Positions 4,655 to 26,362 of a stretch of DNA of 64,000 nucleotides are shown here, piece after piece. The stretch is from Caldithrix sp. (GTDB lineage Bacteria; Zhuqueibacterota; Zhuqueibacteria; Thermofontimicrobiales; Sulfurfontimicrobiaceae). The stretch covers positions 102,490 to 166,489 of the forward strand of contig DYKB01000005.1 in assembly GCA_020722815.1 (NCBI GenBank), read 5' to 3'. Positions within the stretch are counted from its first letter, which is position 1; every line of letters starts with the position of its first letter. The notes beneath the pieces were generated by a model. That model was not told the DNA's origin. It saw nothing but the letters and a program-made list of their open reading frames with translations, and ran no database searches. A program made the translations under genes and the position numbers.

Positions 4655-7600
4655 CTAGAATTCTATACCTAATGTGAAGTATATCATACGTTTGGGATTG
4701 GCATAGGAATTATAAAAGCGCCAGATGTTCGCTTCCCCCTCTTTGGATTCAAGTGGGGGTTGGTCTTTCTGTTCCCAGGCATCCAACTCGAACCGCTGAG
4801 TAAAATACGGTCATAATTATTAAATAAATTATTCACCTGAATTCCCAGATATGGTTTTATTCCACCCAGAGTGATCACTTTTGTAATTTTCAAATCGGTC
4901 CGTTGATGCGGATACCAGGTTTTATTATCGGGTATGGCAAGTCCTGCATAACCTGATTCATAATAGGTATAGGTTGGTCCTTTAAAATATTCGTAATAAA
5001 GGGCGAATGTGATATCACCCAATACCGGGGACGCAAAGCCGGCAAAATCTTTCGGAGAAACCAGACTGGCGTTGGCCCGGATTCGTAAGTCAGACATCCA
5101 TTTCGCTTCGATATCATCACGCTGTGTCGGTGAGCCAACCGAATTTTTCGACTGACTGATGACTTTCTCTTCAACTGCCGTTAATCCATAATTAGCGGCA
5201 CTGGTCACGCCATAATCCATATTCACGGCAGCCGACCACAGGCCATCAAACAGCTTTTCGAGGCTCATTTCGATACCACGTGATTCCCGGAAGCCTTTAT
5301 TGGCCAGCACATTATTACTGGAATGGAACGACTTTCGGCCAATTTCATTCGGCGAAACATACATAGCTGCGCCGTTCAGTGAATTATCACCTACTGAAAT
5401 CCCACCTTCACCATATTCTGATTGAAAAGCGAGATTCGTTAACTTTTCATAGTCTTTATAGTATCCGGTCGCACTGACACGAAGCATATCGAAGAAACTT
5501 TGGTTATATCCCAATTCAAATTGAACCAAAGTTTGATAGGTCAAACCATCATGCCCCGTATATCCAAATTGACGATTGGGGCCAATGGTATTCAGTGGAT
5601 TTTGCCGCAGGAAGGAAATGGGACGGCCACAAATGGCATTATATGAAGGCCGCATATTGAATTGACCGTAGCTAAAAAAGATTTTGGAAGATTCACTCAC
5701 CGGGAATGAAATTCCTAATCGCGGTGATAGAGCGGCTTTCCAGGTGGACTTTACACTATTTTTCCCTTTGAGCGTATATTTTGCATCATCTGGCTTATTC
5801 GACAGGTCCATATAATTTTCATACGGACGCGGCCAATATGCCCAATCCGGTAGTTCCCGTTCCAGGAACCACATATAATCAGAATTCAGGACATTGGCTT
5901 CATAACCTTTGGTTGTTGGTTCCAACCAAATGGATCAAAGAGTGGATTTTCCGGATAGGTATAATTGGCATTATAGGCATCCAGTCGTAAGCCGATATTC
6001 AGGATAATTCCTTCATACTCCATTTTGTCCTGCAGGAAGAAACCCAACTCTGTGGGCTTTGCATCCCAAACATTGGCAAATACCTGCCCGGCATAGGGTT
6101 TATCCGGTGTTGTCTGCCGCCAATCATGCTGAATCGCAATATGATCGAGATCATGTAAAATAAGCTGTGCCCCGCCTTTAAGCTGGTGTCAATTCGTAAT
6201 CTGGCTGGTAATATCGCCCTTAAGATTGAGGGCATTGGTATGATAACCAAAGTTGGTCAACCAATTCATGTCCAGAACCCGCAGCTCGCCAGTTAACGAC
6301 ATCATTTTATCATATTTTTGACCGAAACCGACATAACCATCCCGTGGCCAGGGAGAATCGGCGGTATAGCCAAAATGTTGGTCAGCCCAGGCGTTTTGGG
6401 CTTCTGCTTTCGAATAATCCTGTGCGATGATGTTTTCCGATCGCGTATAGGTCAAATCGATATTATAGAACGTGGATGAATTAATAGTGTGCTGCCATTT
6501 TAACGCCATTTGATCCATATTCATCTCATCATTACCAAGGCGGTAAGCGCCACCCCAGTACCCATATTCACCTAACCGCATATCATTTGGGTCACGGGAT
6601 TCGCCGGGAATTAAGCCATGCACGCGATTATTTTCCAGTCCCATCACGCCGGATTGGTTATAAGCCGACATTTTATGATAGGCGCGCATGTAATTAGCGC
6701 TGAGCTTCATATTTTTATTCAGATAATAATTAAACTTGAAAATTCCATTGTAAGAATCCTGATAGGGTAATCGGGTGGGATAGATATGGACGCCACGCAA
6801 ATAATTGAATGAAGCCAGAAAATTGGAATTTTCTAAAAATGAGCCATAAATACTGCCTTCAATCTCTTTTTGTGACCGCTGGTTATAATCAGCAACTTCC
6901 TGGTTGCCCAATACCTGATCAATATGGGTATCATATAGTTGTTGCGCGGTGGGTACGGTTTGTCCATCCCATCCGTACCAATAGCGGTAGTACTCGGCAT
7001 ACTCTTTCTGTTTTGCGGCCGATTCCAGTTGTTTGGCCCAATAACTCACTGGAAAATCCGCAATCCGGTGCAAATTCTCATTAAATAAATAGGTGCCCCA
7101 ATGATATTGCCCGGCCGGTCGCAAGGTACCCTTAATATTACCATGAATATTTCTTTTCGTCATTGAAGCTTCTTTTGTTACCACATTGACGACACCGGAC
7201 ATGGCATTACCGTATTCCGCATTGTAGCCACCGGTTAGCAGCGTTACTTCCTGAATGGCCGTGGTGTTAATTTTCTTAAACTGATCCTGCAAAACGCCAT
7301 AATCAGTCGAACTTCCATCCACCATATAGCTGACTTCTTTTAATTCACCGCCCCGGAACGTGCTCACCATACCGGTGTTGATTATTCCATTTTGCTGGCT
7401 AACCAGGTCTTCGAGATCGGTTACGGGTGCCCGTGAAATCAGGGAAGAATTTATCACGGTTTGCGTACCCGTCACATCCAGTTCAACCAGTGGCCGTTCA
7501 GCGACAATACTGACTTCGGTTCCTTCAATAACGGTTGGTGATAGCATAAAATTTACCTGAGTCGTACGATTGGTTATCACCAGAACATTGGTTTTCGTGG

Positions 7601-7871
7601 TGACTTCATAACCCATCATCGTTGCTTTAACCGAATATGCACCAGCAGGAATGTTAATGATAAAATATTCACCCTTGGCGTCGGCTGCTGCTCCCAGAAA
7701 TGTTCCATCGATCATCACATTCGCGCCGGGAAGTGCACTACCGGATTCTTTTTCGATCACCCGGCCTGATATCTTTCCGGTTATCGCAGCCATTGCACTT
7801 CCCGCTGAAATCACGATTAAAAACATCAGCATAAATGCAAATATCTGCAAGTCAAGAGACTTTCTGGTCAT
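4655..7871 (-). pseudogene. TonB-dependent receptor with CarboxypepD_reg-like N-terminal domain, disrupted (one in-frame TGA, two frameshifts)
   Basis: ORF 6189..7871 (GKISGRVIEKESGSALPGANVMIDGTFLGAAADAKGEYFIINIPAGAYSVKATMMGYE; plug GGYNAEYGNAMSGVVNVVTKEA), continued in the same frame after TGA at 6189-6191, then ORF 4684..5925, then the terminal segment PPLESKEGEANIWRFYNSYANPKRMIYFTLGIEF* in another frame ending with TAG at 4655-4657. Confidence 0.85.
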
Positions 7872-8633: not shown

Positions 8634-9605
8634 TCATCTTCTGAGCTTCTCATAATTATAAACAAATTTCGGCGTTCGCCCCTCGAATACATCGATGACT
8701 GCTATTGCCGCTGATTTTGCAATCCGGACATTGGATTCCCAAGTTGAACCCGCGACATGTGGCGTTAAAATTACATTTTTCATCAAATTAAACGGACTAT
8801 CCGCCGGTAATGGCTCTTTTTGAAAAACATCCAGTGCGGCACCCGCTATTTTCTCACTTTGCAGCATGTCAATAAGTGCCTGCTCATCGACCAGCTCGCC
8901 CCGGGAAGTATTCACCAGATATGCCGACTCTTTCATCAACGCTAATAATTTTCGCGAAACCAGACCATGGGTTTCAGGCACATTGGGAGCATGGATTGAA
9001 ATAAAATCAGATTCAATAAATAATTTTTCCAGCTTGTCGGTAAAAGTAATAAAATCATCTTTTATTTCACCATGAAAATAAGGATCATACACCAGTATTT
9101 TCATTCCCAGACCCCAACCACATTTCCGGGCGACCAACATCCCAATTGCTCCGAATCCAATTAGTCCCAAAGTTCGGCCGGCGACTTCAATTTGTTTTTC
9201 GGAAAATCTTTCCTGCCATTGCCGGGTTCGAACCGCCTGATCCATGTGAAATAATTGCTTGGCTAATCCCAGAATGAGGGCCACCGTATGTTCGGCGACG
9301 GTACAATCGTTCATACCCGGCGTATTGCAGACATAAATGCCACGCTCACTGGCGGCCTCAATATCGATATTATCGACGCCGACCCCGGTTCTGGCTATCA
9401 CCTTCAGGTTATGCGCCTGTTGAATTACGTTTCGATTCACTTTTGATGTGGCCCGCAGGATGATTCCGAACACATCGGGCACTAATCGCAGCAGCGTTGC
9501 TTCGGAAGTATCCGGGGCAATGATAAGCTCGAATTTATCGGTCAGTAAACTTTTGCCCTGGGGATGAATATCTTCGGAGAGTAGTATTTTGGGTTTCATC
9601 ATCAT
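8634..9605 (-). CDS. D-isomer-specific 2-hydroxyacid dehydrogenase (phosphoglycerate/hydroxypyruvate dehydrogenase-like)
   Basis: 323 aa; LGLIGFGAIGMLVARKC, VNTSRGELVDEQALIDML, LTPHVAGSTWES motifs. Confidence 0.9.
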   Translation of the reverse strand: MMMKPKILLSEDIHPQGKSLLTDKFELIIAPDTSEATLLRLVPDVFGIILRATSKVNRNVIQQAHNLKVIARTGVGVDNIDIEAASERGIYVCNTPGMNDCTVAEHTVALILGLAKQLFHMDQAVRTRQWQERFSEKQIEVAGRTLGLIGFGAIGMLVARKCGWGLGMKILVYDPYFHGEIKDDFITFTDKLEKLFIESDFISIHAPNVPETHGLVSRKLLALMKESAYLVNTSRGELVDEQALIDMLQSEKIAGAALDVFQKEPLPADSPFNLMKNVILTPHVAGSTWESNVRIAKSAAIAVIDVFEGRTPKFVYNYEKLRR

Positions 9606-9744: not shown

Positions 9745-10542
9745 TTAAGATACCAACTTTTTACGATTAAATTCTGAAATCCAGTTGATAACATCAAAAT
9801 TATCTTTGCCAGTTTCATAATCGGTTACCAGCGTCAGTATTCGATGCAGATGATTAAACATCGCTTGCGCAGCCTGTTCCGGATCGCGTGAACGAATACC
9901 TTTGACAATATCGGCATGCTCCTGCATCACCAGTTTCGAAAGTAAAACGTACCCTTCTTTATTTCGGACAATATTTTCTGAATGAGAGATAACATCCGGA
10001 GCAATTAATGAAATGATGGAGCGTAAAACCGGATTCTGACAAAATTCCGCGATTCTCAAATGAAACAGAAAATCGACTTCGATGCTTGGATTTCCATTAT
10101 TGGCGAGCTTACAATATTCCTGATGTGCCTGTTCAATTTTTTCGATTTCATCATCGGAAGCGCGTTGCGTGGTTAAACGGATGGCATTGGTTTCCAAAAT
10201 CTGTCTGGTTTCAATGAGGGATTTATAATCGTCTTTTTCCAATTCTAATATATTGGTGATTAATCCCTCAAGGGCCTTTACTCCCAAACTGGCGACAACT
10301 GTTCCACGATGTGGAATTGTTTTGAGGATGCCATAAAATTCCAGTTTTTTAATCGCTTCCCGTACATACCCCCGTCCCACCTGAAGCCGTTTGGCGATGG
10401 TTCGTTCAGGCGGTAACCGATCACCGGCTTTCAATTTGCCACCTGAAATTTGCTGTTTTATTTGTTGAATAATCAATTCCGTCGGTTTGACGATTTTGAT
10501 TTCCTGCAACGATTCAATAAATTCACTATTATCCTGTGACAT
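9745..10542 (-). CDS. FadR-family (GntR superfamily, FCD domain) transcriptional regulator
   Basis: wHTH GDRLPPERTIAKRLQVGRGYVREAIKKLEFYGILKTIPHRGTVV plus FCD domain; start moved from 10674 to ATG 10542 (MSQDNSEF...) with aggag RBS. Confidence 0.9.
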   Translation of the reverse strand: MSQDNSEFIESLQEIKIVKPTELIIQQIKQQISGGKLKAGDRLPPERTIAKRLQVGRGYVREAIKKLEFYGILKTIPHRGTVVASLGVKALEGLITNILELEKDDYKSLIETRQILETNAIRLTTQRASDDEIEKIEQAHQEYCKLANNGNPSIEVDFLFHLRIAEFCQNPVLRSIISLIAPDVISHSENIVRNKEGYVLLSKLVMQEHADIVKGIRSRDPEQAAQAMFNHLHRILTLVTDYETGKDNFDVINWISEFNRKKLVS

Positions 10543-10570
10543 CGGTTTCTCCTGGTATACGACCAGTGGT

Positions 10571-10626
10571 TTATGGTTTGTGGTTAACCATAATATAACA
10601 ATCTCTTTTTTAAAATGCAATAGAAA
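10571..10626 (-). promoter_or_regulatory. Putative sigma70-type promoter plus palindromic operator upstream of the FadR-like regulator
   Basis: Minus strand: TTTCTA-TTGCAT (10620-10615) / 17 nt / TATATT (10597-10592) followed 1 nt later by TGGTTAACCA palindrome (10590-10581). Confidence 0.5.
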
Positions 10627-10841
10627 TTTAACATTTTTGAAAAATTTTTGTAACGGCTCAGGTTCAGGGTTCAATTGTTCCCGGTTCAGAGTTTAGAAAT
10701 ATTAAAAAAGGTTCCGGTTTCATTGTTTCCGGGTTTTCTTCATCGATCATGTTTTCAGGTATCTGTTTCTAACAGTACTTAATTCAAATACAATCATCCC
10801 CCAAAAGTGGCATTTTAACGCTGAACTCTGAACTTTGCACC

Positions 10842-13283
10842 TTAAACCTGTGAACGCATACGAATTTTTTCCACCTTGCCAATTAAAAAAACATAACTCA
10901 ATATCCCCGATAACATAATCATTCCCGCCAGCAGAAATGCTGAATTAAAAGAACCACTTAAGCTAACCATAAAACCGGTGAGAAGTGGGGCTACCGCAGC
11001 ACCCACTGAGCCACCCAGATTTTGAACACCCGCCAGGGTACCGGTAGTATTTTCCGGTGCAATTGCTTGCATAATGGCCCAGGTATTAGCGGTGGCCATG
11101 CCCATACTGACGATGGCGACGAGTAAAACTGTAACGGCATAATCCTGATTCTGGATGAATGGAACCGGAATGATCAACGAACCCATCAGAAATCCAATGA
11201 TGACAAATGCTTTGCGCACTTTGGTGTTATCATATCCCAGTCGGATCAAAAAATCCGCCGCCGCACCAGCTAACGGAACCATAATGGCAACTCCGCCAAA
11301 AGCAATGCTGGAAAAAGCCCCCATTTTAGCCAGTGTGAAATGCATTTGGTCCTGAAAATAAGTCGGTAGCCAGCTTAAATAAAGCACCAAAACATAAGAA
11401 TAGGCCGCGCTTCCCCAAAAAATACCCCATGTTTTTTTATATTTAAAGAGTTCTTTTAATGGAAATAACTGAGGTTTTTTTGATGATTTGTCAGCTAAAC
11501 TAGCCGGCTCTAATGCGTTAGGAAGTGCTCGCAAGCGACTTTCGAGTTTACGATAGAAGTATTCCCACGGTGCCAACCAGATAAGCGGAACCAAACCACA
11601 TAAAATAAATAACATACGCCAGCCATAAGAATCTATCAGCCAGGCAGCCAGAATTCCGCCAATGGATGGTCCGAACTTGGTGCCTGAGAGATAAAGCCCG
11701 GAGGCCAATCCACGCTCTTTTTCATTAAAATACGTACCGATAAAGGCCATGCTGGCTGGCGCAGATACCGATTCGAGAATGCCCAATAACGCCCGTAAAA
11801 GAATGAACATCCAGATACTCGTGGCCAAACCAAAGGCAGTGGCCACAAATCCCCAGATTAGATAGCTCAAAGTATAGAGTTTTCGGATGCCATATTTATC
11901 CACCAAACGGCCGGCGGGCACCTGTAAGAGGCCATACATCCAGAAAAACATGGCCAGAATTAATCCCATTTGGGCCGGATCCACCGGAATATGCTTATAA
12001 ATATAAGCACTCAGGGTGTCATTCAATGCGGTTCGTTTTTTAATGGCCCCGACAATGGCAAATTTATCGTCACTGAGTGCCACCGCGCTTCCAAAATTGA
12101 AAATCGTTGAATCCGAAGAGACGAGTCGGCTTTGTTGAACCCAGCGTTGCCCTTCACGATGGTACATAAACACAATCCCGGAGGCGCCAGCTTTGGGTCC
12201 TGTCGCCGCACCAACCATCGCATAATTTCCAGCTAACGCGGCACTGATACCAAATTGATTGATGGCCGGACTATCGCCAGACTCAAGCTGAACCTGGAGT
12301 TTCAACCCGTCGGTATGGCGTTGAAAAATATACGCCGTACCGCTGGATGCATGACGTTCCGCATCCGGCGCCGTGACCAGCGCATAATTTCCATCCGCCG
12401 ACAATAATTGGCCAAAGTGATCATTGGCTTGCGCATCGGCCCGCATGAGTTTTTGAGTCTGAATCCAGTCATTTTCCTGATGCTGAAAAACATAAACCGC
12501 ACCTCTCCCCTGCTCTTCGGCGGAATTACCGACGAGCACCGCATCTTCAAGCATCGCTACGGATTGACCAAATGGTCCTGACGCGGCCGTATTTTCGACG
12601 GTCAGTTTTGCCTGCTGAACCCAGTGATCATCCTGTCGATGAAAAACATAAACCGCACCCGATATAGCGTAATCAATTTTTGCCGGCGCACCGACAAGGG
12701 CATAATCATTCCGAATCGCTACCGCTGCCCCAAAATTCAATCCAATGGGGGGTTCCGTCGGCAAAAGCTGCTGCTGAATACGCCATTGAATCTGATTTTT
12801 GTCAGTTCCTTCTTTTTTGCGGTGTCGGGCAATAAATACTAACCCTGAGCCTGAGCTATCACTTACAGAACTGATGATGGCATCATTCTCGTCCAATGCA
12901 ATGGCTTTTGTTTTCAACACGCCATCAAGCGCCGAATCGGGCTGCAGGGAGGCTGTTACAACCCAGCCGCTATCCTGATGCGTCAGTAAATAAGCCAGAC
13001 CGCCGCGTTGATTTAATCCATCGAACTCACCCGCCAGGATTGCGGCATCCTGGTCAATTGCAACTGACGAGCTGATTTCCGCCGCATCACTTCGCCAAAA
13101 TTGGAAAACCTGAACCCAATGCCCAAATTCGCGACTGATCGCCGAGGCCGCAAACGACATGTTCATCCGATCCAGGTAGCTGTTGATAATTCCCAGCGTC
13201 AGCAGCAACACAATGCCCCAGCGGAGATATTTTATTGGCTTCGGTTCTGCAGCCAGATTTTGAGTCGGCGTATTTGTTTTCAT
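10842..13283 (-). CDS. MFS (ACS-like anion:cation symporter) sugar-acid transporter with an FG-GAP-type seven-repeat propeller inserted between TM1 and TM2
   Basis: TM1 YLRWGIVLLLTLGIINSYLDRMNMSFAASAISREFG; insert aa 55-432; then PVDPAQMGLILAMFFWMYGLLQVPAGRLVDKYG and the remaining MFS helices. Uninterrupted 813-aa frame. Confidence 0.9.
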   Translation of the reverse strand: MKTNTPTQNLAAEPKPIKYLRWGIVLLLTLGIINSYLDRMNMSFAASAISREFGHWVQVFQFWRSDAAEISSSVAIDQDAAILAGEFDGLNQRGGLAYLLTHQDSGWVVTASLQPDSALDGVLKTKAIALDENDAIISSVSDSSGSGLVFIARHRKKEGTDKNQIQWRIQQQLLPTEPPIGLNFGAAVAIRNDYALVGAPAKIDYAISGAVYVFHRQDDHWVQQAKLTVENTAASGPFGQSVAMLEDAVLVGNSAEEQGRGAVYVFQHQENDWIQTQKLMRADAQANDHFGQLLSADGNYALVTAPDAERHASSGTAYIFQRHTDGLKLQVQLESGDSPAINQFGISAALAGNYAMVGAATGPKAGASGIVFMYHREGQRWVQQSRLVSSDSTIFNFGSAVALSDDKFAIVGAIKKRTALNDTLSAYIYKHIPVDPAQMGLILAMFFWMYGLLQVPAGRLVDKYGIRKLYTLSYLIWGFVATAFGLATSIWMFILLRALLGILESVSAPASMAFIGTYFNEKERGLASGLYLSGTKFGPSIGGILAAWLIDSYGWRMLFILCGLVPLIWLAPWEYFYRKLESRLRALPNALEPASLADKSSKKPQLFPLKELFKYKKTWGIFWGSAAYSYVLVLYLSWLPTYFQDQMHFTLAKMGAFSSIAFGGVAIMVPLAGAAADFLIRLGYDNTKVRKAFVIIGFLMGSLIIPVPFIQNQDYAVTVLLVAIVSMGMATANTWAIMQAIAPENTTGTLAGVQNLGGSVGAAVAPLLTGFMVSLSGSFNSAFLLAGMIMLSGILSYVFLIGKVEKIRMRSQV
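11988..13121 (-). other. In-frame FG-GAP_2-like beta-propeller domain inside the MFS gene (7 repeats)
   Basis: Repeats of the form FGxxVAxxxxYALVGAxx...GAVYVFxxxxxxWVQQxKLxxxD; seven W-strands, seven Y/F-strands and seven VA/VGA-strands counted by eye. Confidence 0.85.
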
Positions 13284-13322: not shown

Positions 13323-14204
13323 TCAATCCTTCAACCCCGCCAGAAGTTCTGCTAATAATGCCAACGCGGAATGATCCGCATCGCCATGTCCCAAGGCCAA
13401 CAGCGCATCCATCTGTTCCGTCACGATGGCGCTCGCTGGTAAAGGCACCGAAAGCTCCCGTCCGGTTTGCAGGGCAATATTCATATCTTTCCGATGCAAT
13501 TTCACCTTAAAACCAGGCTTGAAATTACGATCGAGAATGCGCTGGCCGTGCAAATCCAGAATCCGACTCTGGGCAAAGCCACCAAGCAACGCCTCCCGTA
13601 CTCGCGCAACATCAACTCCTGCCTTTTTGGCCAATGTGAGCGCCTCAGCGACGGCCTGAATTGTCAATGCCACAATAATTTGATTGCAGGCTTTCGTAAC
13701 CTGTCCGGCGCCAGTATCGCCAATATGCACGATATTTTTACCCAATTTTTCAAAAAACGGGACAGCACGCTGAAATCCTGCTTCGGGTCCCCCCACCATA
13801 ATCGACAGGGTACCGGCTTCTGCTCCCACCTGACCACCTGAAACTGGCGCGTCCAGGGCGATGACACCTTTTTCCTGTAATGCAGCAAATACTTTTTGTG
13901 ATGTAGCGGGCGCAATGGTAGACATATCGATAAATAGCATTCCCGGTCGCACACCGGCCAGCACGCCATTTTCCCCAAACACCACCTGTTCCAACTGCGG
14001 TGAATCGGGCAACATGGTGATAATAATCTCACTTCTTTCGGCAACGGCCTGACAGGTCGAAACTTCGCTGGCGCCGGCTTGAACTATTTCACGAACGGCC
14101 TCTGAATTAATATCAAAAACGGTTAAACCGTAACCCGCTTTTAATAAATTTTTTGACATGGGTTTCCCCATAATTCCCAGTCCGATGAATCCGATTTTTT
14201 CCAT
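13323..14204 (-). CDS. garR: 2-hydroxy-3-oxopropionate (tartronate semialdehyde) reductase-like / 3-hydroxyisobutyrate dehydrogenase family
   Basis: 293 aa; MEKIGFIGLGIMGKPMSKNLLKAGY, DAPVSGGQVGAEAGTLSIMVGG, GAGQVTKACNQIIVALTIQAVAEAL. Confidence 0.8.
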   Translation of the reverse strand: MEKIGFIGLGIMGKPMSKNLLKAGYGLTVFDINSEAVREIVQAGASEVSTCQAVAERSEIIITMLPDSPQLEQVVFGENGVLAGVRPGMLFIDMSTIAPATSQKVFAALQEKGVIALDAPVSGGQVGAEAGTLSIMVGGPEAGFQRAVPFFEKLGKNIVHIGDTGAGQVTKACNQIIVALTIQAVAEALTLAKKAGVDVARVREALLGGFAQSRILDLHGQRILDRNFKPGFKVKLHRKDMNIALQTGRELSVPLPASAIVTEQMDALLALGHGDADHSALALLAELLAGLKD

Positions 14205-14229: not shown

Positions 14230-15015
14230 TTAATTATTGGACTTTTCATAATTATTTTTCATGTCGGATAATTTTTTAACCATTGTCCTCGCCCCATTAT
14301 TTACAAAGGCCATGTCCGCACCACTGGCGATGAAGCGATAACCAGCTTCATAAAATTGATTGAAGTGATCCGGATTAAACAACAATACCCCGGCTGCTTT
14401 GCCATATTTTTTGGCGGCATTGCCTGTTTTTTTAACAGCATCCAGAAAAAGTGGATGATCAAATTGATTAAAAATGCCCAATGCCATCGAAAGGTCCGCC
14501 GGTCCAACAAAAAGGACATCCACGCCTTCAATTGCAGCAATCTCATCAACGACCTGAAGCGCTTCCACCGTCTCAATCTGAATGACACCAACCAGGCTGT
14601 CTTTGGTTTGGGCATAATATTCATCAAAATTAATCCCGAAATGAGTGGCGCGAATCATTTTGGCAACCCCGCGTAAACCCTCTGGAGAATATTTCAGGGC
14701 ATCCACGGCGAATCTGGCTTCCTGCGGCGTCCGAATACGCGGACACATAATGCCTTCCGCACCAAAATCCAGCACCCGATGAATCCGCTGACGCTCATAA
14801 CTCTCCACCCGAACGATGGGCGCCGCCGTACCCCGTTCCAATGCCTGGATTTGGTGATAGGCATCCGCTTCACCGCCGACACCATGCTCCAGATCGATGA
14901 GGACCCAATCAAAACCGGCCAGGCCAACGATTTCCGCACTGACAGAGGAACCGAGGTTCAGCCAGCAGCCGAGGACGGTTTCTCCATTTTTTAAACGCTT
15001 TTTTAGATTTTTCAT
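14230..15015 (-). CDS. garL: HpcH/HpaI-family class II aldolase (5-keto-4-deoxy-D-glucarate / 2-keto-3-deoxy acid aldolase-like)
   Basis: 261 aa; GCWLNLGSSVSAEIVGLAGFDWVLIDLEHG, IMCPRIRTPQEARFAVDALKYSPEGLRG, DVLFVGPADLSMALG. Confidence 0.8.
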   Translation of the reverse strand: MKNLKKRLKNGETVLGCWLNLGSSVSAEIVGLAGFDWVLIDLEHGVGGEADAYHQIQALERGTAAPIVRVESYERQRIHRVLDFGAEGIMCPRIRTPQEARFAVDALKYSPEGLRGVAKMIRATHFGINFDEYYAQTKDSLVGVIQIETVEALQVVDEIAAIEGVDVLFVGPADLSMALGIFNQFDHPLFLDAVKKTGNAAKKYGKAAGVLLFNPDHFNQFYEAGYRFIASGADMAFVNNGARTMVKKLSDMKNNYEKSNN

Positions 15016-18706: not shown

Positions 18707-20000
18707 TCATCCGCCATTCATTTCAGTGATAGTAACCATTTTTTGCTGCAATAGTGCCTCGTCCGCCGCAAAAGCAATGAGATGGCTATTCACGGAATCG
18801 AAAATATCCGTAGTGGAAAGCGATGGTTTCTGTCCCAGCAGGACACTCACAAAGTCATTAACCAGGCGCAGATCGCCACCGCCATGCATATCACCTTTGA
18901 GATTGACATCGAATTTTTCATCCGTAAAACTACAGCAGTTCGTAAATTGAGGCGTTCGTACCACAAAAGTCCCCTCTTTCATGAATCCAAAAATTTCACC
19001 CGCGGTGCCGACGAGATGAATCCGCCGATCGCCTTTTGGGGTGGCGCATATCAGTTGATGATTGGCCAGCGAACCGTTTTCGAATTCAATCAGTACGGAC
19101 TGATGCTCCAGTACGTCGTTATCACAGCGCCAGACGCAGCGACCGAAAGGGTTATCGGTGCGCAAGGACTCGAGTTTGTCTTCGCGTGTTGGATTGGGAA
19201 TATGTTCAATGGAATCCCAGGCGTAAAAATCCCAAAAATTGTAATCGATATAATTTTTCCGGGCTGAATATGGACACGTCGCTTCAATCTGGCAATCCAC
19301 CAGACAACGTTCACCGGAACCTGGTGGCGCATTTTCCGGACGAAAGATAGATAGTCCCCCCAGACTGGAGACAAGTTTGGGGCGGAGGCCGGTATTGAAC
19401 CAACAAATCAGGTCCAAATCATGGCAGCATTTTGCCAGCATAATTGGATTGGTCTTGCGTTGTCGCCACTTTCCCCATACAAATGCGACGGCAACATGGT
19501 GATAACTCACTTCTTCAATCGTCCCAATATTGATCAAATCACCAATTTTTCCATCAGCAACGATTTCTTTGATTTTTTGGTAAAATGGCGCATAGCGGAG
19601 TACATGACAGATCATCACCCGACGCCCGGTCTCTTTAACCGTTTGAACCAGTAAAGCCAATTCAGCCCGCCGTCTGGCAAATCGGTTTTTCCAATAAAAG
19701 ATGGTACCCCTGCCGCAAGCGCGGGATCGAAGTTTCGATATGCTGGTGATCCATTGTCCCATTAATAACCGCATCGGCGAATTGTGGACGTTCTGCCAGT
19801 TCCGTGGCCGATTCAAAGCAATTTGCCTCGGGAAAACCGTATAATTGCCGGACCTGCTGGCGGCGAATTGGGTTGGGATCCGCGACCCCCACAATTTTCA
19901 GACGATCGGGATGTTCCAGAGCGTAGGAGGCATAGACTAATCCCCGATGTCCAGCCCCAACTACGATGGCCGTGACCGGTTTTGGCGATAGTTTTGACAT
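18707..20000 (-). pseudogene. Gfo/Idh/MocA-family oxidoreductase, single frameshift
   Basis: ORF 19662..20000 (AIVVGAGHRGLVYASYALEHPDRLKIVGVADPNPIRRQQ...GYHLLLEKPICQTA) continues in the frame of ORF 18707..19894 (AELALLVQTVKETGRRVMICHVLRYAPFYQKIKEIVADGKIG...). Removing one base of the CCC run at 19665-19667 restores one frame. Confidence 0.85.
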
Positions 20001-20035: not shown

Positions 20036-22486
20036 TCACTTCACCACCTGTTTGGCTTTGGCAACTTCCTGCATGGCTGGATTATACCAGATATAATTTG
20101 GTTTGGGATTTGAAAGGGCATCATTGCGCCAGACATGCAGATACTGCCATTTATCCCAGGCAATGCTCACAATATCCAGATCGCCGTCACCATCAAGATC
20201 GACCACTTGCGCACCCAGATGGCTTTCCTTTCCGCGGTCTATTTCATGCGGCGTAAAAATACCCCGACCATCGTTTTCCCAAATTTGCAGTCGGTATAAT
20301 TTCTTATGTTCGCAGGTGATAATGTCCAGATCTCCGTCGCGATCCATATCTGCCACATCCAGATTGTTCATGGAGTACTGCGTAACTAATTGATGACGAA
20401 TCCACTTACCGTTACCATGATCGCGAGGTGCTTCAAACCAGAAGAGATTGGCATCGGGTTCTTTGCCGGGATGTCGTTCTTCGGTAATCACCACATCCGG
20501 ACGGCCATCACCATTCATATCCGCAATCCGGCAGCGGTCGGGATAGGTCTCAACTGCGCCGATAAGGTGCATTTTCCAATTCCCGCTACCATTTCCAGGG
20601 TTTTCATACCAGGCTACCTGTCGTTTACCATTTTCATCCTGCGTTTCGTTCGGCGTGGCGATATCCAAAAAGCCATCGCCATTGATATCGCCCACGCCAA
20701 TGCCTTCCTCAGAAGCCGTGGAATTGATTTGTATTTTAGGCCAATTTTCCTTTTCAGGATTAGCTGGAATTTCCAGATAAAAAGTGCCTTCACCCGTGGC
20801 GAACAGGAGTTCCGGTTTTCCTCCCGGTACGATTTGCGCGATCTCATACCCCTGACTATTCACATGCCCGGAGGGTGGTAATTCGGCAATTTTAAATTGA
20901 TTCCAATGACTGCCCGCACGCCAATCATCGGTTTCCAGCCAGTAAATATCTGGCAACCGGGTGGCAATTATATCGCACCACTTATCGCCATCCACATCAA
21001 CTGCGAGCATACCATCGATATTCAGGCCTAAATCCGACCGTTTCCAGGCGCTGGATATATCACCCGTTGGATTCAAATAAAAATAACGACCCGCGATAAT
21101 ATCTTTGTAACCATTGGCATCGACATCCGGAAAATCGAGACCGAAATAACGCAACCAGCTTGGTTCCTCCCAGTCACCCCATTTTTGTCTTGTGCTATCT
21201 ATCTGAAGATAGGTAAATTTATTGAGCGGTAATTTATGCTCGCTGGCTTTATTGATATACATATCAATGGGTCCGAAATTAAAATTCCGGGGACCAACAA
21301 TGTCCATATCGCCATCATTCTGCAAATCTCCGATTTTGAATCCATAAATTCCAAGTTCTGAAATCCGCTGTTCATGCCACACCAGGTGCCGATCCCATTT
21401 CGTGGCTTCGCCTTGATTTAAAAACGCCACCACTTTATGCGCCAAATACGGTGCCGGGTCATGGCCATGCGTTAATTCGCCAGCCAGTACATCCAGATCC
21501 CCATCATTGTCCAGATCAGTTATTCCAAGACTGTGGCACCAGTTTACCTGCCCAATTACCCCCTCGATCCAGGTATCCTGCGTCGGATCAACCGGTGCTT
21601 TGTACCAGGAGACTGGAAACGCGGGCATTTCGGCTTGCGAAATAACCACATCCAGACAGCCATCTTTATCGATATCAGCCAGCCGGACTTTACTGTTATT
21701 ATCGGCCCAACTGTCATTATTCTGATTGTACCATTTCTGGTCAATGTTGTGCAGCTTCCAGGCTTCTGTTAACGGATTGGCCGGTGATTCCAGCCAGTAG
21801 CCATTCAATACGGCATCATCGTCACCATCCCGGTCGATATCCCCACACGCTAAACCATCATAAGGTGGAATGGGGAATTCACATCCCTGCCAGCCATCGG
21901 GTGTCGTCTGAAGCCAGATATATAAAATCATATCAGCCCGGCCCGCCAGATCCAGCCGGCCGTCGTTGTTAAAATCTGCCACTTCAATCTCTTTTGAATA
22001 CGCCCCCTGTCCAATGCGATGCTGATTCCACGGACCTGCTTTGGGATTACCCCCGGGAAGCGGATTTTCAACCCAGACCGTCCAACCATTTTTATCTTCG
22101 GTTTCAGTGCCCATATCCCGGCCGATCACATCGATATCGCCATCGCTGTCGATATCCCCAATCGCCATCCCGCAGGATTCATAATTCAGTGTCAAGACGT
22201 CGTGTCGGGTCCAGGCCGGCGCTTCATACCAGGAAAGAACTTTGTTCTTTTTATTATCAAAACTGTTAGCGCCGCCATAGTTGGTGATAATGATAATATC
22301 GTTTTGGCCATCCAAATTCACATCGCAAATAAATGGATGCCGGGCGTCGATATTATCCAGCAGAGCCGGTTCAAAAGGGACACCTTTTTGAAAATCAGGG
22401 AGAGATTGCGTCTTTTTGGATTCCCTGGCACAGTCAATGAATAAAAATAGCACCAGCGTGAAAATGAACAATAATTTTACTTTCAT
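20036..22486 (-). CDS. VCBS/FG-GAP-repeat lipoprotein
   Basis: 816 aa; lipobox LFLFIDCARE; many DxDxDGxxD motifs (DIDSDGDIDVIGRD, DFNNDGRLDLAGRA, DLDNDGDLDVLAGE, DMNGDGRPDVVITE, DLDGDGDLDIVSIA). Confidence 0.9.
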   Translation of the reverse strand: MKVKLLFIFTLVLFLFIDCARESKKTQSLPDFQKGVPFEPALLDNIDARHPFICDVNLDGQNDIIIITNYGGANSFDNKKNKVLSWYEAPAWTRHDVLTLNYESCGMAIGDIDSDGDIDVIGRDMGTETEDKNGWTVWVENPLPGGNPKAGPWNQHRIGQGAYSKEIEVADFNNDGRLDLAGRADMILYIWLQTTPDGWQGCEFPIPPYDGLACGDIDRDGDDDAVLNGYWLESPANPLTEAWKLHNIDQKWYNQNNDSWADNNSKVRLADIDKDGCLDVVISQAEMPAFPVSWYKAPVDPTQDTWIEGVIGQVNWCHSLGITDLDNDGDLDVLAGELTHGHDPAPYLAHKVVAFLNQGEATKWDRHLVWHEQRISELGIYGFKIGDLQNDGDMDIVGPRNFNFGPIDMYINKASEHKLPLNKFTYLQIDSTRQKWGDWEEPSWLRYFGLDFPDVDANGYKDIIAGRYFYLNPTGDISSAWKRSDLGLNIDGMLAVDVDGDKWCDIIATRLPDIYWLETDDWRAGSHWNQFKIAELPPSGHVNSQGYEIAQIVPGGKPELLFATGEGTFYLEIPANPEKENWPKIQINSTASEEGIGVGDINGDGFLDIATPNETQDENGKRQVAWYENPGNGSGNWKMHLIGAVETYPDRCRIADMNGDGRPDVVITEERHPGKEPDANLFWFEAPRDHGNGKWIRHQLVTQYSMNNLDVADMDRDGDLDIITCEHKKLYRLQIWENDGRGIFTPHEIDRGKESHLGAQVVDLDGDGDLDIVSIAWDKWQYLHVWRNDALSNPKPNYIWYNPAMQEVAKAKQVVK

Positions 22487-23817: not shown

Positions 23818-26362
23818 TTATTCAATCTCAATTTCAATCGAACAATCCGCTTTGTGTATATCAAAATGGAGTACGCGTTGATTAGCGGTATCCTCAATCG
23901 TGTAATTCAAATAGCGGCTCTCAAAATAGACTGTTGGTGTTTTTTTTAATTTTGGATAACAGAGTATAATTTTGCCCGGGGCCCCATTCTGTACCACCAA
24001 AGCTGTTTGGCTTTTAAAAAATAATTTTTTAATCCAACATGAAGCTGATTTAATCCAGATCCCGCTGGTATTATTGCTCAAAATAAAAGCACTCCGGACT
24101 GAATCCGGTTCAGTAAATTCAAAATTGAATTCCAGGCGATTATCTTCCAGTAATTGATAAGCATGGCCAATAATTCCCAGAAAATGGTCGCGATTTATGG
24201 GTGCGGTGTGATAGGTATGCCGCATGACAGCGCCTGAAAACGAGATGACCTGACCCTGCGCGTTATGGTCATCGATGAACTCCCAGATTTCCGGCGAACT
24301 ACCAATACTGCCAGTAAGCTTTGGTTTCGTAGCAACAACGCTGGCAGAAACCTGTTTGTAACGCAAAAGGATTTCATTAGCCAGCAAGCGTTCATCAAGC
24401 GACATTTTTTTCAGATTTCCCCAAAAACCAGAGCCGCCAACCAACGCTGAATAAATCTTATATTCCTGCGAACCGTAAGCTTTGCGATTTTTAGGCTGAA
24501 TTGTCAATAAATGGGGATATTGCGCGGATGTTTGTAAAATTGATGGAATGATAGAGTGGTACTGCTGATAAATGGTTCGCATCGACTTCGCCCGGTAATT
24601 GGAAAAATCGTGATAGCCGCTGGCGCCATTATTCATCCAGAAAAATCGCCCCTGGCTCAAAAAATCCAGGCCGACATTGCGCCCACTCTCGGTGACATCA
24701 TAAACAATCACCAGTTCGGGACAATAAGCAATTAATTGCTCTGCCATGGCACTGACCGTCCGCACAAATTCATAACCATAGCGGTGACCACGAGCTTCAG
24801 GGTCATGTTCGGAATTACCATGTTCATGTTGATCGGAATAACAGTACCAGCCATCTAGCGCATCCCACTTGAAATAGGTACAGCCCAAATCAATCAAGCG
24901 TTTGCATTTCGCAACAAACATTTCGGCATAATTTGGACTTACCAGACAGGCCATTTTTCTGCCAAACCGGGACGGCACCACTTCGCCCTGCTGATCACGG
25001 GCCAAATTTTCCGGATGCACTTTAAAAAAAGACGAATTCGGGTCGATACAGGTGGGCGCCAGCCAGAGTCCCAGCCGCATCCCATAATCCTGTAAACGTT
25101 TCACGATTAGCGCCAGGCCCGCCTCTCCCCCATTGGGGATTGATTTGCCAGTCACCCATCCAATCGTACCAGCCATCATCGATGACAAAAACATCCACGC
25201 CCAATTGATATGCCGCATCAATCTCCTGAAGTAACCGGGGTAAATCCAGCAAAACTTCATCCGGTGCGAAAAATTTACGGGAGCCACCATCGGCATCTTT
25301 ATCATAATAAGGAAGGGGATCATATACGGTCGCATCACAGTAAACCTTGTGGCCGGACCGGACGTCTTTTATATTGCTTAAATTAAGATAACTATTTTCT
25401 TCATCCCGTTGCCACCCCCAGGTATTGTAATAAATGAGGGGCTTGCGGCCGGAGCGCGTTTCACTTTGCCAATCATACAAATAATTTCGAAACGCCTTTC
25501 GTCCCTCATCCAGATCATCCGCATCAAAAGTACCAAAATTCATCCACGGTGTAATAAAAGGATTTGCGGCAGTAAATGTTTCGCCATCAAAAAAGGCGCC
25601 TTTTTCCAAAGAAATCCAGAGTTTTAATACATGATCCTCGTAACGGCTGCCAAGTTTAAGATAATCTTTGGCTGTATCATTGTCAGGCGAACCATGTTCA
25701 TACGCCAGGATCCAGTTATGGTGATGTTGATCCATTCCGAGCAAAATCGGACCTTTTCTCAGTTCAGATTCACCAGGGATAAATTTTGAAAATACAGGAT
25801 GATACATATCGCATTGTGATAAATTTAGCCCGCGTTTATCAGTCACGCCCCAATGACGATTTATTGGAAAAGCATGAATATTGGCATCGGGCATTTGTTC
25901 AGCGTTCCAGGTGGCCAGGCGAATTTCCTCCGCGCCTGGTGGCACAGGCGAAAGCAGCGAGTATTGCGGAAAAATGAAATGTGGTTTCCCATTCAAATGG
26001 TTCAGACAAAAAGAGTCCATGTTTGGAAATATCATCAATCTTTCGCGGGTGATGGGCGAATCCGGAAACATTTGAAGCTGATACTTGAAGATGACATCTT
26101 TTGCCTCAATACTAACAATGACCGCTAATCCACCATGCTTCATAGTACGGGAGTCATACGTGAGATATTCTCCCGATGTTAATCGTGTACCATTTATGAC
26201 ACATTCAAACCACGATTGTGATTTTACCAATAATTCACTTTTTTTAAATTTATTAAAAAATGAGATCGGTACAAAAGCATTACGGGTGCTAAATTGACGG
26301 CGAATGCTGCTATTTTCAACAGTCAGAATTCCATGCTGATGCTCAAGTTTCACCCCGCTCAT
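23818..26362 (-). pseudogene. GH36-like alpha-galactosidase (melibiase), single frameshift
   Basis: ORF 25022..26362 (LLQEIDAAYQLGVDVFVIDDGWYDWMGDWQINPQWG) continues in ORF 23818..25338 (EAGLALIVKRLQDYGMRLGLWLAPTCIDPNSSF...LGCTYFKWDALDGW). Removing one base of the C5 run 25127-25131 restores NPQWGEAGLALIVKRL. Confidence 0.85.

Follow-up and report, generated by a model that had tools for sequence, protein, structure and literature searches.

A predicted seven-bladed FG-GAP propeller inserted into the TM1-TM2 loop of a putative sugar-acid transporter in the KSB1 phylum

Does a single gene of Caldithrix sp. genuinely encode a major facilitator superfamily (MFS) transporter interrupted by a soluble beta-propeller, and what might such a domain do for the transporter? 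The gene lies in a window of 64,000 nucleotides, the whole stretch of DNA analysed here (contig DYKB01000005.1, positions 102,490 to 166,489). A preliminary description of this window had read the product as an ACS-type MFS protein split by a propeller in the loop between the first two transmembrane helices (TM1 and TM2). The minus-strand reading frame at 10842-13283 runs from ATG to stop over 813 aa with zero internal stops. Searches against Pfam-A bore out the proposed split, since both families matched within this one ORF above their curated cut-offs. MFS_1 (PF07690) was found in two stretches, the best covering residues 424-766 (E=8.8e-59, far over the cut-off), and FG-GAP_2 (PF14312) in five stretches (E=9.1e-43; 144.7 bits vs a cut-off of 23). 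For the insert, Pfam reported neither the NANM/NanM mutarotase nor the lactonase propeller family. Among solved structures, E. coli DgoT (6e9n; E=3.1e-43 over 424-807) was nearest to the transporter part. Judging from MFS topology, the loop that carries the propeller should lie on the periplasmic side. The gene and its parts are as follows:

10842..13283, minus strand: whole gene, MFS transporter with an inserted FG-GAP_2 propeller (single ORF; Pfam; orthologue 55% identical)
13122..13283, minus strand: aa 1-54, N-terminus and TM1 up to ...SAISREFG (alignment with DgoT and plain MFS homologues)
11985..13121, minus strand: aa 55-433, inserted beta-propeller of 379 aa, predicted to be seven-bladed (FG-GAP_2; AlphaFold2; Foldseek)
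10842..11984, minus strand: aa 434-813 and stop, TM2-TM12 of the MFS fold (MFS_1; DgoT 6e9n; orthologue 80% identical)

The insertion site was located with an alignment of 16 rows: the window protein, an orthologue from a second genome and 14 plain MFS relatives, whose sources were KSB1, other phyla and plasmids. The TM1 Asp-Arg pair and the conserved TM2 Gly are 39 residues apart in 13 of the 14 plain relatives and 40 in the remaining one, in agreement with the earlier statement that these segments are nearly contiguous in ordinary relatives, compared to 418 residues in the window protein and 411 in the orthologue. Within this segment, 15 residues precede the insert (MNMSFAASAISREFG) and 24 follow it (VDPAQMG...QVPA); together they make up 39, and therefore 379 residues were gained and zero loop residues were lost. 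The insert had initially been placed at aa 55-432; its start was correct, whereas its end fell one residue short, the exact insert being aa 55-433. The short TM1-TM2 periplasmic loop that is a common but non-defining trait of ACS/SLC17 members of the MFS is thereby absent from the window protein. The GC content of the insert (0.501) resembles that of its own gene (0.455-0.500 in the remaining parts) and of the neighbouring genes, and a recent foreign origin was rejected because the propeller is unremarkable in this respect.

A second KSB1 genome (G007, WJJN01000202.1), which belongs to the same order as the window genome and to a different family, encodes an orthologue of identical architecture and junctions in one ORF (55% identity overall), for which the domain search again returned MFS_1 and FG-GAP_2. 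Because this separately assembled orthologue has the same in-frame junctions, the fusion is confirmed as real, rather than a product of chance or misassembly. The suspicion that an assembly or frame artefact fused a propeller gene to a transporter gene draws on the apparently metagenomic assembly of both source genomes (the second is titled so) and on several other window genes that are split by frame changes. We rejected it through the orthologue and give it practically no weight, given the recurrence of the junctions in another family and an MFS loop that lacks no residue. The window's genome consists of 247 contigs with 5.5% contamination. Genes of the window that look frame-split encode a TonB-dependent receptor (4684-5925 and 6189-7871), a Gfo/Idh oxidoreductase (18707-19894 with an ORF at 19662-20000) and an alpha-galactosidase-like protein (23818-25338 and 25022-26362), reflecting either sequencing frameshifts or gene decay.

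The simplest reading of the two copies is one insertion in a common ancestor. When the two inserts were compared blade by blade, the in-register arrangement had a mean score of 68.0 vs 29.0-48.6 for the six other rotations. In a tree of ten propellers, the inserts formed a branch of their own (97/97), both members being long branches that drew a warning from the program. By plain identity or phmmer score, some free propellers were as close to each insert as the two inserts were to one another. The identical site, the in-register blades and, with the reservation of its long branches, the tree disfavour two independent insertions. The FG-GAP_2 family is present in 31 of the 82 genomes of the phylum, and the propeller donor was likely local. 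An ancestral MFS protein would have gained a complete seven-bladed propeller cleanly inside its TM1-TM2 periplasmic loop, the probable source being the free-standing FG-GAP_2 proteins that are common in the phylum. Besides the fusion gene, a single FG-GAP_2 locus is present in the window's genome. It encodes a separate protein on contig C237 (G000:C237:104801-105943, L036), and its frame, interrupted by one TAA within the last repeat, may be decayed or misread. The window itself also encodes a soluble protein with FG-GAP_3 repeats (20036-22486; 3.1e-46), a second propeller-type protein ~7 kb from the fusion gene.

The fusion was detected in two of the 82 genomes of the phylum, those of the window protein and its orthologue, and in no further genome among 388 sampled across the domain and 149 of another phylum. 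A pattern-based scan, limited in its reach to close relatives, covered 84,980 species genomes and returned the orthologue as its sole match, so the search for genomes with the order MFS_1, FG-GAP, MFS_1 yielded one further case. Among plasmid and phage records, none covers 80% of the query, the best rows being plain MFS halves, and no fusion was found in viral contigs. Several candidates were rejected on inspection. No propeller was found in the long-frame MFS matches G505 (732 aa), G511 (578 aa), L012 (581 aa) and G026 (831 aa, containing a stop), the open frame that precedes a plain MFS gene in L055 and L012 is unrelated, and the L057 piece begins inside the MFS at a contig end. We found no paper on an FG-GAP propeller inserted in an MFS protein, and neither the libraries nor the papers searched contained a propeller inside a bacterial MFS loop. 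Papers that mention MFS transporters together with FG-GAP repeats were on fungi and, judged by title and abstract, dealt with no fusion. The preliminary description, which pointed to no described bacterial MFS family of this kind, agrees with the absence of a named one from the libraries, genome samples and papers searched. We consider the architecture rare and apparently undescribed, with distant parallels elsewhere possible given the reach of the searches.

The structure of the insert was predicted with AlphaFold2. Modelled alone, it folded as a propeller, in keeping with the initial proposal, and had seven blades, with a mean pLDDT of 84, a pTM of 0.88 and 28 strands, arranged as one N-terminal strand, six blades of four and three C-terminal strands. 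DSSP assigned strands to model residues 2-10 at the N-terminus and 340-350, 354-364 and 367-377 at the C-terminus. In this model, the insert comprises seven closed blades, the N- and C-termini lying in one blade: blade 7 is built from strand d (aa 55-64) and strands a-c at aa 394-431, a 3+1 velcro closure at the insertion point. Since such closure puts both propeller ends in the same blade, the insertion can be tolerated. Foldseek searches of the PDB gave the integrin alpha4 headpiece as the best match (TM-score 0.66-0.69 on the query). The best PDB sequence match was integrin alpha-M (E=0.0041), and the insert did not qualify as an integrin alpha propeller by sequence; the likeness is in the fold. 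Two short elements of the propeller bear on its orientation and conservation:

13092..13121, minus strand: aa 55-64 HWVQVFQFWR, strand d of blade 7, velcro (DSSP of the model; orthologue RWVQIF)
12132..12161, minus strand: aa 375-384 HREGQRWVQQ, c-d hairpin of blade 6 and start of strand d (orthologue comparison; model)

The MFS takes the place of the blade-7 c-d hairpin, as seen when blade 6 (YHREGQRWVQQ) is compared with blade 7 (YKHIP/HWVQV). By the customary naming of propeller strands, c-d hairpins are on the face opposite the loops that most often bind ligands. Attachment at this hairpin implies that the hairpin face should look at the membrane; by propeller topology, the usual ligand face should then point away from the transporter mouth. 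In a full-length AlphaFold2 model, built from a two-sequence alignment, the MFS half had a pLDDT of about 35, and we thus deduce the orientation of propeller and transporter from topology. The propeller would stand on the periplasmic mouth in close connection with TM1 and TM2; its hairpin face would look at the transporter, and the face rich in loops would be exposed to the periplasm.

The transporter half retains the residues on which DgoT depends. D46, R47, R126 and E133 of DgoT have been shown to be needed, D46 being the proton site and R47 the substrate arginine (PMC11649914, PMC6532931). They correspond to D38, R39, R497 and E504 of the window protein, all kept in the orthologue:

13167..13172, minus strand: D38-R39 in TM1, equivalent to DgoT D46-R47 (6e9n alignment; 16/16 aligned rows)
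11772..11795, minus strand: R497...E504 in TM4, equivalent to DgoT R126 and E133 (6e9n and 6e9o alignments)

R497 occurs in all 16 aligned rows and E504 in 15 of them; 6e9o reads Q at position 133. The transporter scored 215.2 bits against the D-galactonate transporter subfamily TIGR00893, below its cut-off of 395. As judged from these sequence features, the window protein is probably a working proton-coupled symporter of the ACS/SLC17 type, with sugar acids as the presumed substrate class, and transport itself would proceed as in DgoT. In DgoT, TM1 is the gate helix and the TM1-TM2 helix pair moves during the transport cycle (PMC11649914), and a rigid domain at the end of TM1 could in principle influence gating. 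Such a mobile helix pair bearing a large exposed domain would also suit a receptor, in which the transporter body serves mainly as anchor or sensor for the propeller; since every coupling residue is retained, as is 80% of the MFS half, we find this role very hard to credit.

The genes around the fusion gene suit a sugar-acid substrate:

13323..14204, minus strand: GarR-type tartronate semialdehyde reductase (2-hydroxy-3-oxopropionate reductase), directly upstream of the transporter (TIGR01505)
14230..15015, minus strand: HpcH/HpaI aldolase, GarL-like (PF03328, 3.2e-39)
9745..10674, minus strand: GntR/FCD-type regulator, downstream (PF00392, PF07729)
8634..9605, minus strand: D-2-hydroxyacid dehydrogenase, downstream (PF02826, PF00389)

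The GarR-type reductase exceeded the cut-off of TIGR01505 (394.8 vs 340.75 bits), and the GarL-like aldolase had PRK10558 as its best NCBIfam match at 201 bits, below the cut-off of 393. The sugar-acid context proposed earlier is thus upheld, with one of these two enzymes over and the other under its NCBIfam cut-off. At the second locus, the orthologue is preceded by two tandem copies of tartronate semialdehyde reductase and by a sugar ABC transporter. A DUF2961 protein (L034:8006-9181, 1.7e-95) directly follows the orthologue in that genome and is absent directly beside the window copy.

Two insert-bearing sequences were available for comparison (n=2), and their halves differ in conservation. 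The orthologues are 84% identical over TM1 (aa 17-54) and 80% over the MFS part but 28% over the insert, where strands reach 35% and the remainder 18%. By element, the identity is 15% in b-c loops, 22% in d-a loops and 18% in c-d hairpins, and it is lowest in the loops of the propeller's probable outward face. The best-conserved ten residues of the insert are HREGxxWVQQ of blade 6 (aa 375-384; 8/10 identical), whose HREG hairpin is the single strongly conserved surface piece and in the model adjoins the attachment blade 7. From this sequence comparison, the transporter appears strongly constrained, while the propeller seems to retain its fold and junction, together with one hairpin on the membrane side, as its outer face drifts.

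If the propeller had a pocket for this one small substrate, conservation of the pocket would be expected; a lineage-specific partner, or the lack of a specific ligand, would impose none. We infer that a role in docking, recognition or shielding agrees better with the pattern than does the capture of what is transported. The preliminary description had suggested a built-in domain for substrate capture or partner binding, in concept a covalent binding protein on a secondary transporter. In the capture reading, the propeller would bind the sugar acid, or an oligosaccharide that is its precursor, and concentrate it at the outward-facing mouth. The placement of the propeller over the mouth, the sugar-acid gene neighbours and a propeller-symporter fusion in another KSB1 genome are consistent with this proposal, and several propellers bind sugars. 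We nevertheless regard it as unlikely and do not favour it, given the contrast between an insert at 28% and a transporter at 80% identity, the 15% and 22% in the loops of the ligand face, and a hairpin-face attachment that should turn this face away.

A fused periplasmic enzyme, mutarotase- or lactonase-like, that converts the substrate before uptake could be imagined from the same kind of fusion, whose NANM propeller family has known enzyme members, and from an Erwinia plasmid operon in which a plain homologue is accompanied by an aldolase and a separate beta-propeller lactonase. Serum paraoxonase, a lactonase, was also among the weaker fold matches of the insert. However, FG-GAP_2 differs from both the lactonase and the mutarotase families, and the loop face has no polar cluster conserved between the orthologues, which makes an enzyme improbable in our view.

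The whole is best, if tentatively, explained by a sugar-acid symporter whose propeller serves as a recognition or docking platform, an account to which we give a little less than an even chance. The propeller would most likely keep close to the transporter a partner from the periplasm or outer membrane that is specific to the lineage, or else a fragment of a polymer. Against such docking, fast divergence equally fits a loosely constrained passenger or cap. A propeller acquired by recombination and kept for folding, stability or shielding of the mouth, with neither specific ligand nor partner, would account for the low conservation beyond the blade skeleton and one hairpin, and velcro closure would render its insertion structurally harmless. 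It would account less well for seven blades intact and in register across two families despite such divergence, or for the cost of retaining a 379-residue exported domain, and we consider it somewhat unlikely.

Beyond a docking platform, the integrin-like propeller at the MFS gate helices may be an integral recognition domain in the periplasm, one that links uptake to the binding of a ligand or partner, for instance through gating of TM1; we regard this as conceivable though doubtful. MFS transporters usually function without soluble domains, and bacterial secondary transporters that use a recognition domain, such as TRAP systems, mostly keep it as a separate protein. If true, this would be the first described secondary transporter with such a built-in recognition propeller, and a propeller on the TM1-TM2 hinge would show that a recognition or gating domain can be gained in a single insertion. 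With the insertion site and tolerated termini known to the residue, the protein offers a template for engineering, and the orthologue pair, with its conserved body and divergent propeller, makes the question testable.

Each half of the protein has precedents, and none was found for this combination in the material searched. ACS transporters (TC 2.A.1.14; SLC17 type) such as DgoT align over the whole 12-helix body and are alike in coupling residues and sugar-acid neighbours; DgoT and the 14 plain homologues differ from the window protein in that their TM1-TM2 loop is free of any such domain. The free-standing FG-GAP_2 propellers of KSB1 share the repeat and the phylum with the insert, which instead sits inside a membrane protein and is poorer in Asp (5.6-7.1% in the inserts vs 8.7-12.2% in free propellers). 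The integrin alpha headpiece, the nearest solved fold, likewise has FG-GAP-type repeats, but it belongs to an animal cell-adhesion receptor and is 13-14% identical to the insert over full-length matches. A small loop domain occurs in SLC22, an animal family in which it is glycosylated and, in contrast to the window protein, contains no propeller. These eukaryotic MFS transporters (OAT1, OCT1) carry the domain in the same TM1-TM2 loop (PMC10643130). The synaptic vesicle MFS proteins SV2A/B/C have a repeat beta-domain, LD4, in a luminal loop (PMC11026379); LD4 is a eukaryotic beta-helix between TM7 and TM8, whereas the window protein has a propeller between TM1 and TM2. On a plasmid of Erwinia sp. 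E602 (L039, 2953-6096), the gene for a plain ACS-type MFS protein precedes those for an aldolase and the separate beta-propeller lactonase, a set reminiscent of a split version of the fusion, although the propeller family differs. A further case is a 909-aa ORF from a genome of the same class (L061:71-2800, G059), in which an N-terminal NANM (N-acetylneuraminate epimerase) propeller (PF24996, 1.9e-46) is joined to a sodium:solute symporter (SSF; PF00474, 1.2e-48). This KSB1 protein likewise combines a propeller and a secondary transporter in one chain, but its propeller is Kelch-type and N-terminal rather than loop-inserted, and its transporter is of the SSF rather than the MFS type.
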